The notes under the pieces: model-generated
What the model was told of the DNA's origin: nothing
Database searches by the model: none
The model's input: the letters and a program-made list of their open reading frames with translations, nothing else
Source of the DNA: Prototheca cutis
Taxonomy: Eukaryota > Chlorophyta > Trebouxiophyceae > Chlorellales > Chlorellaceae
Reading direction: 5' to 3'
NCBI GenBank assembly: GCA_002897115.2
Contig: BCIH01000018.1
Coordinates: 82,322-146,321, forward strand
Length of the DNA: 64,000 nucleotides
Part shown: in pieces, positions 16,871 through 20,996 of the stretch
Numbering within the stretch: position 1 is the stretch's first letter
Layout of the letters: each line of letters begins with the position of its first letter
Program-made: the position numbers and the translations under genes

Positions 16871-19800
16871 ATGGGCACAAATCCGGCGGATGACGCCGTT
16901 TCGCGGCTGGTGGACAAGAATTCCAAATTATATGGTCAAATTGAGGTGCACAGGAGCCGCATCCACGCCCTGGAGAGCAGGTACGCGGGGGATGCAAAGG
17001 GAGCGATGGCCGACATGCCCCTGCCCAGGCTCACCTGGCTGCCAGCGCCCAGCCCTTTCCCGTGCGGTGAATTCGCAGACTCGCGCAACTTGAGGTGCAC
17101 GATGCGGAGCATGCCGAGACGGTGCTGTGCATCCGTCGCATGTGGGACGAGCTCAATGAGGCCATTGACTTCCTCAAGTATTGGTGCGCAGGCGTGGGTG
17201 GCATGGATGGGAAAATGCAGGCCCTTGACGCGGCATGAGTACATGAGACCTGGGATATGATGTGGTCAAGAGTGATACAGATGCTGTGCCTCGTCAGCTG
17301 GGTGTTTGTGCGTGCGAAAACCCTGATTTTTTCCTCCCCATGTCCCACTGCAGCGTGAGGGGCACGCGGCCGGCGCTGGACGGCCCCGAGGGCTCCGGAA
17401 GCGGGTCGAGCATCGTGACCGGCGCTTCACCCTTTCTTGCCACGGTGGCCAGCGCATTCCTGTCGGCCAAGGACCTCGCCTCGGCGGGCCTGGAGCCCGG
17501 TCCCGTGCCGGATCTCGAGGTCGAACTCCGCCGGCGCTCTGCTGCCACGCTCCAGGCCGCGGGTGTGCTGCTGCAAGAAGTGAACGGCCTGCAGCAGCGC
17601 TTTCGGGGGGCGGGGGCCGGGGGAGGTGCTGGTGGTGGTGGTAGTGGCGTTGCCGCGGCAGACGACGAGCCGGCAGGTGATGTTGCATCTGCCGAGCCCA
17701 TGGACACGGATGTGGCGGCCGAACGTCGTACCGGAGACGATGGCAACGAGCAGCCATCGCCGGCGCCGCCGGCCAGGCCGATCAACGGCGGCAGCGACCC
17801 AGGAACCGTCCACCTGGAGAAGAAGCTGGTGGCGCTGAATGTGCTGCTCAAGTCGGAAAACCGGCGGCTCCAGGACGCCGCCGATGCTGCAGCCGCCCGG
17901 CAGCACGACCTCGAGACCGCGCTGGCAGGTGTGTGACTGTGTGGAAAGCTCTGGCATTCGGCAATTGAATGTGGGGGGCTTTGGCGTGGTTGCTGCAGTG
18001 GACCGCGTGCCCTTGTATCAACCCCGCATTCGCTCGCTAATCACCCACACCCAGACCGCGAGGCTGAGCTGCTCGTGGCCCGGCGCAAGGCGGCGCAGCC
18101 CGCAGCCGTCCACGGAGCCGACAGCGCGCCTCACCCCGACCGGCCATGCTCCCCCGACTCGGTCGGTGGCCGGCCTTCAGGGACGACGACGGCCGCGACG
18201 ACGGCCGGGGGGCCCTCGCCCAGCCCGCCCCCCCCGCCGCCCGCAGAAGAAAGCGAGGCCGCCGAGCTGTCGGCGGCCAATGCCGAGCTGCAGGAGCGGC
18301 TGGGCCGAGTGGAAAAGGAGCTGGAGTCACGGGCCGCAGCCCTGGCAGCTGCCACAAGGTGTGTGGTCGTTTTTTTGGCTGTGTGTGTTTCTATTAGGTA
18401 GGATGGGTGCGTGGATTCGTGTATTTTTCTTAGGCGCCCTTCCCCCTAGCACTATGCCTGGCGTATGCCAAGGACATACAACACCCCAAAACAAAAAAAA
18501 CATGCGGAGGGGCAAAAAGCCTCGAGCACCGAAGTCTGATGCGCTTTCCACTGCGCCAAAGCAGCACCGGGCGGAAAACCGCCGGGGTAGCTACTGCTTG
18601 AGGGATTCGAACCCCCGACCCTCAGATAGCATTCGCTCGGGAGGAAACGGAACTCTATTCCAAAATCGAATTAATGTCGCATCATAACGCGACGGGTCCT
18701 GTTGGGTCCGTCCAATCATGAAGAATGTCGTTCATGGTCTCCATGGACACCAAAAAAAAATCCTGGCAGCGTTCATGCCCAGTTTCCCGTCAAAAACACA
18801 CAAAAGTAAACCTTGCCTTTTGCCATGTTCCAAAAAAGCCCACCCCAACACTCCGGAAACCCTGGCTCAGGGATGCGAGGGCGGCAAGGGAGGCTCTGGA
18901 TCTGGAGCGTGACGGCATGGCACGCGCGCGCCAGCACGACCTGCAGCAGGCCCGGCGCCTGGAGGCCGAGCTGGGCGAGGCGGACGCCGCACTGCGCGCA
19001 CTTCGCTCCGAGCGGGACCACTTGGCGCGGCGGTGCGCCGAGGCGCAGACAGCGATGGACGCGGCCGCCCACGCCGCGCGTCGCGCGCAGCTGGCAGAGG
19101 ATGACGTGCGGCTGATGGAGCGGCGCCTGGCCGCCGCGCAGGCCGCGAGGGAGGAGGCCGAGAGTTTGCTGGGCGCCGAGCGCGCCAAGGCGGGGTCCCA
19201 GCCCACGGTCCAAGCCCTCCAGGATTTACTGTCCGCCGCCAAGGTACTAACAATGCTGTTATCATTCATTTGCTCGTTTGTTTATTGAGGGAATTTTGGG
19301 GGTTTTTTCCCCGAGAGAGAGAGTGTTCCATGACCGCACATCTGCTCTGACAACACCCACCGCCCCCCAAAAAAAATCTGCAGAGGGATCTTGGGGCGCA
19401 ACAGACGACCGTGGCGCGGCTCCGGGTGCGGCTGGCAGAGATGCAGCAGGCAGCCGACAGCACCAATGCCGCGGTGTCCATGGCCGAGGTGCGGTTCTGC
19501 TGGTGGTGTTTGGTGTCGATGAGGTGGAGTGGCAGGACCGTGCTATGTTTGTTTGGGTTGCTTCATCTTGGAAGATGGGGAGGCCTGTTGCAGTGCTGCC
19601 GCTCCTGAGTTTCCAGCACCCATGCCACCGGGCTTTCCTCCGGAACGACACGACGATACAGGAGACCCACGCCTCGGAGCTTGGGGAGCTCAGGCGAAAG
19701 TTTGCGGAGGAGGAAGCTGCGTGGAAGGTGGGTGGATGGGGGAACAGCGACTGCAGGATACGTAGACGGTGCGTGGCCTTTCACACAACATCACATAGAC

Positions 19801-20996
19801 ATTCAATGAACCAAGCAACTTTTCATCGAGCCGATGAACACGGCCATGCACAGGAGCGCGAGGCAGATCTGGTGCTGTTCATGGAACTCGCGCGGGAGTA
19901 CGCGGGCGCAGGCGCGCGGAACGAAGAAAGCGCGGCGCGCGACCACGCTCGTGAGCTCCGCAGCCGCGTGATTCAGCTGGAACGACGAGTGGAGGAGTTG
20001 GTGGCTCAGCTGGAGGACGCACGGGCGGGGACACCAGCACCAGATTCCAATGGGCACGCGGCACCTGCCGGTACGACAACTCCTGACACCTCCTTGCCAA
20101 CCGACCAAGCCGCACTTAAGGACGCCAACTCCGCCTCGGCAGCACGGACGATCGCGCGGCTGGAGCGCGAGCTTGCGACGACACGTAATCGTCTGTCCTC
20201 CAGCCAGGACGAGTGCGAGGCGTGTCTGGCAGAGCTGGAAAGCGTGGCGGCCGCGTATGAGGAGGCCCAGGCCCAGGCCAGCCGACTGGCCGAGCTGGCC
20301 CAGCGTGCCGACGACCAGCGGGGCACGCTCCTGACCGAACTCATGGCCGCACAGCGCGAACGGGCGACTGCGAGAGAGAACGCGGCTGCGTCCGAGGAAC
20401 GACTGCGTATCGCGGCCGCCGCGGCCGCCGAGGGCCGCACGAGGTGCGCCGAGCTGGAAGCCTCGGTTGCGGGGTTGGGAGCAGAGTCCGCCGCGCTGCG
20501 GCAAGAGGCTGGCGAAGCGCGGTCTGCGCTGACTGCAGCGCGAAGGGCCGTCGAGGAGCGAGACGTCGCGTTGGCGACTGCAAGCGCGGATGTCGAGGCG
20601 CTGCGGTCGGCGTTGACGGCTCGGTCTTCGGAGCGCGACGCCGCGGTCGAGGCTGCTGCAGCCGCCGAGGCACGCGCGACAGCAGCAGAACAAAGCGCGG
20701 CCGCAGTCGCCGAACGCCAAGCCGCTGTCGCCACTGCTGCTGCTGCTTTGACAAACACGGGCGGCATCAACGCTGACGAGGACGTAGCGGGGCTGAAAGC
20801 GGAAGTCGCTGCTTTAAGAGACATGGTGAACTGCTCGGTGTGCCATGCCCGACGCAAGTCGGTTGTGCTGACAAAATGTTTCCACATGTTTTGCGGCGCG
20901 TGCATCAAGCGCAACCTGGAATCGCGGCACCGCAAGTGCCCTGGCTGCGGCACGGGCTTTGGCGCCAACGACGTTGCCCAGTTCTTCTTCACCTGA
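16871..20996 (+). CDS. BRE1: BRE1/HUB-type RING E3 ubiquitin ligase for histone H2B
   Basis: Eight exons (16871-16980, 17079-17183, 17354-17928, 18055-18358, 18871-19243, 19384-19488, 19662-19727, 19854-20996) encode 926 residues. The N-terminus (VSRLVDKNSKLYGQIEVHRS, then a WDELNEAIDFLKYW helix) matches the start of plant HUB1/HUB2 and yeast Bre1. The middle is almost entirely Ala/Glu/Arg-rich coiled coil. The C-terminal C3HC4 RING (CSVCHARRKSVVLTKCFHMF, CGACIKRNLESRHRKCPGCG, GFGANDV) is diagnostic for BRE1/RNF20. It monoubiquitinates H2B in transcribed chromatin together with RAD6. Intron 4 (18359-18870) contains an antisense tRNA gene. Confidence 0.96.
18514..18518 (-). terminator. RNA polymerase III T-run terminator
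   Basis: Five T on the minus strand, ten bases after the last base of the permuted 5' half; a longer T run follows at about 18492-18499. This fits the end of a Pol III transcript that reads 3' half, spacer, 5' half. Confidence 0.7.
18529..18627 (-). tRNA. trnR-UCG: Circularly permuted tRNA-Arg(UCG) gene
   Basis: On the minus strand the 3' half (18627-18592) precedes the 5' half (18565-18529), separated by 26 bases (18591-18566) that fold into a GGCGG-TTTT-CCGCC hairpin. Joining 5' half to 3' half gives a complete 73-nt cloverleaf. The acceptor stem is GCTGCTT/AAGCAGT with one G-U pair. The D arm is GCGC-AGTGGAAA-GCGC. The anticodon arm is TCAGA-CTTCGGA-TCTGA with anticodon TCG. The variable loop is GGGTC, and the T arm is GGGGG-TTCGAAT-CCCTC. 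The discriminator is A and CCA is not encoded. The break lies in the anticodon loop between positions 37 and 38. Outside the break, GCTCGAGG (3' flank) can pair with CCTC-CC-GAGC (5' flank), a bulge-helix arrangement as used by the tRNA splicing endonuclease. It is nested antisense in BRE1 intron 4. Confidence 0.88.

Follow-up and report, generated by a model that had tools for sequence, protein, structure and literature searches.

A circularly permuted tRNA-Arg(UCG) gene broken at 37/38, one of 40 permuted tRNA genes found in a green algal genome

Results

Structure of the tRNA-Arg(UCG) locus

The window, by which we mean the whole 64,000-nt stretch of DNA analysed, has a GC content of ~62% and comes from a genome of 19.89 Mb in 23 contigs (G000). 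Read directly from the sequence, its minus strand carries in this order a leader, the 3' half of a tRNA-Arg(UCG), an insert, the 5' half, a trailer, a T5 run and a T8 run. This tRNA gene lies antisense inside a proposed 512-nt intron of a plus-strand coiled-coil gene, which we infer probably extends as far as the RING finger in ORF 19251-20996 (Pfam PF13920/PF00097); a protein search with the RING protein returned one distant match only. The features of the locus are as follows.

18359..18870, plus strand: proposed host intron, 512 nt, GT..AG (from the reading frames, junction set by hand, phase kept)
18628..18643, minus strand: leader, on the 3'-splice-site side of the junction, where pairing with the trailer is possible; its base -3 is G and can pair with C32
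18627..18592, minus strand: 3' half of tRNA-Arg(UCG), A38 to discriminator A73, 36 nt, T arm included (sequence, ARAGORN, model R2)
18591..18566, minus strand: insert (intervening sequence), 26 nt, joining both acceptor ends (sequence)
18578-18575, minus strand: TTTT in the loop of a GGCGG-TTTT-CCGCC hairpin inside the insert (sequence)
18565..18529, minus strand: 5' half of tRNA-Arg(UCG), G1 to G37, 37 nt, with the D arm and the anticodon TCG (sequence, ARAGORN, model R2)
18528..18519, minus strand: trailer, complementary to the leader, on the 5'-splice-site side of the junction (sequence, duplex energy)
18518..18514, minus strand: T5 run, presumed first RNA polymerase III terminator (sequence)
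18500..18493, minus strand: T8 run, presumed back-up terminator (sequence)

Joined in the usual order, the two halves give a 73-nt tRNA that ARAGORN calls tRNA-Arg(tcg). Every stem of the cloverleaf is paired (acceptor 7/7, with G1-U72 as a G-U pair; D 4/4; anticodon 5/5; T 5/5 including one G-U), and the sequence keeps the invariant T8, D-loop GG, T33 and TTCGA. After joining, the anticodon loop reads CTTCGGA, with the break between CTTCGG and A, that is, at 37/38. A preliminary description of this DNA had proposed tRNA-Arg halves in swapped order on the minus strand, a complete cloverleaf on rejoining and a break in the anticodon loop. Its coordinates for the halves (18627-18592 and 18565-18529) are exact, the stems, invariant bases and ARAGORN call bear out the cloverleaf, and the break at 37/38 is borne out by that call together with the R2 score and the junction pairing reported below.

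Scanning the raw window found no tRNA by ARAGORN and none by Rfam at the gathering score, a silence that is expected from the permuted order. CCA is absent from the gene, and GCT opens the insert right after A73. The locus thus has the features of a type II permuted gene: a 3' half upstream of the 5' half on the same strand, a 37/38 junction, a short insert, leader/trailer pairing capable of forming an hBH, a T stretch downstream of the 5' half and no encoded CCA. Taken at the level of sequence, a permuted tRNA-Arg(UCG) gene broken at 37/38 is a well-supported reading.

Scores against a model free of permuted genes

Linear class I tRNAs from this genome, six in number (Lys, two Arg, Phe, initiator Met and Asp), were rotated in silico and alone made up a covariance model, R2, which therefore included zero permuted genes. 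R2 scored the window locus at 63.2 bits (E 2e-17; 113,548 bases from 59 sources searched) and gave no second match in the window at E <= 1. Since the model holds no permuted gene, this score argues that the locus is not a product of chance. An earlier model, R1, was built with the window gene included, and its 73 bits there are not an independent measure.

Twenty control sites chosen blind by T-arm motif (L218-L237) yielded no R1 match at E <= 0.1 and no R2 match at E <= 1, and neither ARAGORN nor the stem scan called a tRNA in them; R1 gave weak matches of 12 to 18 bits at other motif sites without a tRNA (L083, L088, L091). Full-length R2 matches of 28 to 69 bits were obtained in 38/40 of the permuted genes described below. 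Ser(UGA) at L050 received a partial R2 match (20.6 bits) and a whole R1 match (35.3 bits), and the second Gln(CUG), where R1 and R2 gave 17.6 to 18.6 bits over the insert and 5' half only (L008/L170), was counted on the stem scan and was missed as a whole gene by both models.

Permuted and linear tRNA genes of the genome

The inventory was drawn from genome sites of T-arm motifs: GGTTCGANNCC (163 sites, among them GGTTCGAWYCC at 43 and GGTTCGASYCC at 53), GGTTCAANYCC (88), CGTTCGANYCG (46) and AGTTCGANYCT (16). We ran R1, ARAGORN and a stem-pairing script over the loci, which took in all of the 43, 53, 46 and 16 sites, 60/88 and 10 of the remaining 67 of the 163. These motif lists are independent of gene order, and 17/18 linear genes carry a listed motif, the initiator Met being the one without. 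We found 40 permuted tRNA genes with 27 anticodons and 18 linear ones with 11, and no anticodon occurs in both groups. The inventory is incomplete, and the fractions 40/58 of genes and 27/38 of anticodons refer to the genes found.

Permuted genes by anticodon:
Ala: AGC x3, CGC x2, UGC
Arg: CCG, UCG, UCU
Asn: GUU x2
Cys: GCA
Gln: CUG x2, UUG
Glu: CUC x4
Gly: CCC, GCC x4, UCC
His: GUG
Ile: AAU x2, UAU
Leu: AAG, UAA
Pro: UGG
Ser: CGA, UGA
Thr: UGU
Trp: CCA
Tyr: GUA
Val: CAC x2, UAC

Linear genes by anticodon:
Lys: CUU x2
Arg: ACG x2, CCU
Phe and initiator Met: one each
Leu: CAG x3, CAA, and UAG at L068
Asp: x3
Pro: AGG x2, CGG

The gene at L068 was labelled Phe(aaa) by ARAGORN and was read by hand as an intron-bearing Leu(UAG). 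Anticodons absent from this incomplete inventory are Val AAC, Thr AGU and CGU, Ser AGA and GCU, Lys UUU, Glu UUC and elongator Met. No tRNA was present at 20 GGTTCAA loci examined as a third batch, and searching the DNA with six tRNAs combined into one query brought no additional paralogue. On the genome, at least 17 matches to the Rfam tRNA family were obtained, all of them linear, with 63 of 246 first-look candidates scored. One short, odd, linear tRNA-like stretch that ARAGORN did not assign (L075, G000:C12:216306) is perhaps of organelle origin and was left out of the counts.

All 40 permuted genes share the architecture of the window gene. The junction is 37/38 in 40/40, the acceptor stem pairs 7/7 across the insert in 40/40 when G-U is counted, T8 and T33 are kept in 40/40, and ARAGORN assigned the expected anticodon to 40/40 of the rejoined tRNAs. 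The anticodon stem is 5/5 in 38 and 4/5 in two; for permuted Trp its register was set by hand rather than by the script. Inserts range from 9 to 80 nt. Eleven of the 40 are exactly 9 nt long and none is shorter, as if a minimum loop were required.

Pairing at the junction

Leader and trailer of the window gene can form a duplex of -11.2 kcal/mol, and 1.8% of pairs swapped between genes were as low. Averaged over 27 families, the duplex energy was -7.21 kcal/mol, against -5.22 +/- 0.40 kcal/mol when partners were swapped among families, and 0 of 20,000 swaps reached the observed mean. At the level of single genes, 15/40 ranked with the lowest 10% of energies for swapped pairs and 13/40 were weaker than the swapped median, so the pairing holds on average and not gene by gene. 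Two unconstrained folds of the precursor were computed, and neither minimum showed the whole permuted cloverleaf.

In 17/27 families, the leader base at -3 is able to pair with base 32, compared with 1 for base -2, 6 for base -1 and at most 11 for any of bases -4 to -10. With genes rather than families as the unit, the figures are 23/40 for -3 and 19/40 each for -4 and -7. We take the -3/32 pair to be the site of the anticodon-intron pair used by the eukaryotic splicing endonuclease. The genome encodes PF01974, the tRNA-splicing endonuclease catalytic domain, at two places (contigs C3 and C7), and the best PDB matches of the two domains are Sen2 and Sen34.

Transcription signals and expression

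Four or more consecutive T follow the 5' half within 40 nt in 40/40 permuted genes; in the controls such a run occurs in 3/20, a difference due in part to their lower A+T content. The corresponding figure for linear genes, within 40 nt after the 3' end, is 18/18. This placement of the T run suggests that the transcript ends beyond the 5' half and speaks for a single RNA that carries both halves. Upstream signals are less distinct: TATA at -60 to -16 occurs in 8/40 permuted genes, 1/18 linear genes and 1/20 controls, a weak enrichment, and is missing from that interval in the window gene. Upstream A+T content has a weak peak at -50 to -31. As promoter signals, the A+T peak and the TATA are suggestive only. 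A search with the TFIIIC B-block family gave one match above the cut-off (25 bits, E 3.5e-4), in a search that also matches 8/14 prokaryote controls and is therefore too unspecific to be informative.

Among the 40 permuted genes, only the window gene has four or more consecutive T within the insert, and this TTTT is the main reason to doubt its expression. If it ended transcription after the 3' half, the locus would be a young pseudogene, a permuted gene that has lost its expression, with CGA read by tRNA-Arg(ICG). Since 6/40 permuted genes have no T run of five or more within 45 nt downstream, four T may be sufficient to stop RNA polymerase III in this alga. Decoding would not stand in the way of such a loss: linear tRNA-Arg(ACG) is present in two copies, tRNA-Arg(ACG) could decode CGA through inosine, and tRNA-Arg(UCG) therefore need not be essential. 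Against this reading, all stems and invariant bases of the tRNA are intact, the leader/trailer duplex is among the stronger ones by the comparison with swapped pairs, and the T5 and T8 runs lie downstream at the usual place. We consider loss of expression unlikely and the window gene presumably functional.

The preliminary description had also called for a genome-wide check for an ordinary tRNA-Arg(UCG) copy. The check turned up no close linear copy: a single DNA search with the rejoined tRNA, sensitive to close copies only, matched solely the two halves at their own locus (100% each).

Other origins of the arrangement

A 3' half followed by a 5' half could also arise by accident from two truncated or neighbouring ordinary tRNA genes. 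Such an artefact does occur in this genome: the 31.1-bit R1 match at L012/L051 was rejected because it spans two linear neighbours, the 3' half of a Pro gene and then an Asp gene. At the window locus, in contrast, no complete gene is called, the halves fit each other along the acceptor stem (7/7) and the anticodon stem (5/5), and the same arrangement recurs at 40 loci with 27 different anticodons, which together make an accidental neighbourhood very improbable. Least credible of all is an assembly artefact in which a linear gene was cut and rearranged by the assembler; the assembly does have 23 contigs, with N in some genome stretches, but 40 loci share the same junction and, on average, complementarity across it, and linear genes of the same genome were assembled normally.

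Other R1 matches of ~12 to 25 bits were rejected as halves of linear genes or as sites without a tRNA. A match of 24.6 bits at L105/L175 was rejected as an orphan Phe 3' half (G000:C8:264185-264220, minus strand), which lies just upstream of a permuted Glu(CUC). No Phe 5'-half motif was present in the 597 bases examined near it, and a complete linear Phe gene is present elsewhere in the genome (L005).

Source of the DNA

A Toprim-domain protein encoded in the window found its best match in Auxenochlorella (47% identity over 84%; 27 matches), and the light-harvesting family had no match in the genome at E <= 0.01. Because of this absence, a colourless alga of the Prototheca type, within the AHP lineage, is the probable source. 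Three contig-end pieces were considered for a telomere repeat as a clue to the organism; the stretches inspected showed N, ordinary sequence with poly-C at its end, or ordinary sequence. The description of the source as a Chlorella-like alga was roughly right, in that Auxenochlorella is the best named relative of one window protein. The other 39 permuted genes, and the published permuted tRNAs of Auxenochlorella, were beyond what that description could show.

Discussion

We conclude with high confidence that the window holds a nuclear type II (37/38) circularly permuted tRNA-Arg(UCG) gene, whose product would mature through a circle. RNA polymerase III would make a linear precursor of leader, 3' half, insert, 5' half and trailer, ending at a T run. 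In the folded precursor, the anticodon stem and the leader/trailer helix would form a substrate for the tRNA-splicing endonuclease, which, by analogy with algae studied earlier, would cut before A38 and after G37. A ligase would join 37 to 38 to close the circle, as in the same algae, and RNase P and tRNase Z would then excise the 26-nt insert before CCA addition. The mature tRNA-Arg(UCG) would read CGA and possibly CGG.

The kind of gene is already known, although rare; what is notable is the scale and the sister pair of linear and permuted Pro genes. A 2014 review (PMC3978253) counts 34 permuted tRNA genes across seven genomes, with a maximum of 11 per genome and inserts of 1 to 74 nt. It names the 37/38 junction type II, the canonical position, and describes processing via a circle as shown by experiment in the algae studied earlier. 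Two more permuted tRNA genes were found later in a chlorarachniophyte nucleomorph (PMC4494063).

The prasinophyte genes summarised in that review resemble the present ones in being green algal nuclear genes with a 37/38 junction in nearly all cases, a short insert and an hBH. They number three to six per genome and, as summarised there, none is Arg(UCG), compared with the 40 genes found here (PMC3978253). The genes of Cyanidioschyzon merolae (Soma et al. 2007, as summarised in PMC3978253) likewise place the 3' half first and have a BHB-like junction. Their circular intermediate has been demonstrated by experiment. In the same summary, 11/43 genes of C. merolae are permuted, with four junction places, and 4/11 carry an extra intron; here 40/40 break at 37/38. 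Most of those genes have a TATA-like box upstream, in contrast to the weak TATA signal here (PMC3978253). Their inserts are stated to lack a termination signal, a typical rather than a defining property, whereas the insert of the window gene holds TTTT.

Closer to the present alga, Auxenochlorella UTEX 250-A, a trebouxiophyte of the AHP lineage, also has permuted tRNA genes, which were found after tRNAscan-SE had given an incomplete set (Plant Cell 2025, PMC12636532; preprint PMC12633428). Among the literature matches listed, we noticed no other report of permuted tRNAs in the Prototheca, Chlorella or trebouxiophyte lineage. The 40 permuted genes suggest that standard gene finders undercount tRNA genes in this lineage, as the Auxenochlorella authors say of their own genome (PMC12636532). 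The P. wickerhamii genome paper points the other way. Using tRNAscan v1.4, it gives all tRNAs except Sec as encoded, and the word 'permuted' is absent from the text consulted; this counts against the generality of the present result. That species may differ, or its calls may misread some genes.

For the genome studied here, we think it probable, though with clearly less assurance than for the window gene, that most nuclear tRNA genes are permuted and that tRNAs for most amino acids ordinarily arise from circular precursors. The A and B boxes would then be unusable as the usual bipartite promoter, and genes would still pass between the linear and permuted orders, as in Pro(CGG) and Pro(UGG). 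With 40/58 of the tRNA genes found being permuted, several questions become testable, namely what serves as the promoter of a tRNA gene with swapped A and B boxes, whether the circle serves any purpose and by what route permutation comes about.

The Pro pair, one gene linear with an intron and the other permuted, is a direct test case for the origin of permutation. The permuted Pro(UGG) (L046) and the linear, intron-bearing Pro(CGG) (L015) are alike at 71/72 mature bases and differ at base 34. The next closest permuted/linear pair, Leu AAG to Leu CAG, reaches 0.76 (eight linear tRNAs compared). Because this identity is unmatched by other permuted tRNAs, the change of gene order in the Pro pair, or a gene conversion between orders, looks recent. 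A tandem duplication of the intron-bearing gene was considered as the origin of Pro(UGG) and found no clear support in the flanks and intron. The leader, trailer and insert of Pro(UGG) resemble the intron and 3' flank of Pro(CGG) no better than shuffles do; against the 5' flank of Pro(CGG), the insert was equalled by 22/500 shuffles, which as one of four comparisons was not counted as support.

Two further gene pairs were observed. At L077 (G000:C13:121950-122750), two permuted Gly(GCC) genes stand in tandem, and ARAGORN joins the 5' half of one to the 3' half of the next into a linear tRNA with a 235-nt intron, a reading that is the mirror image of the tandem-duplication model. The permuted Val(CAC) genes L168 and L169 (G000:C10) lie ~10 kb apart on opposite strands; the halves and a long trailer are common to both, and their 40-nt inserts are quite different.
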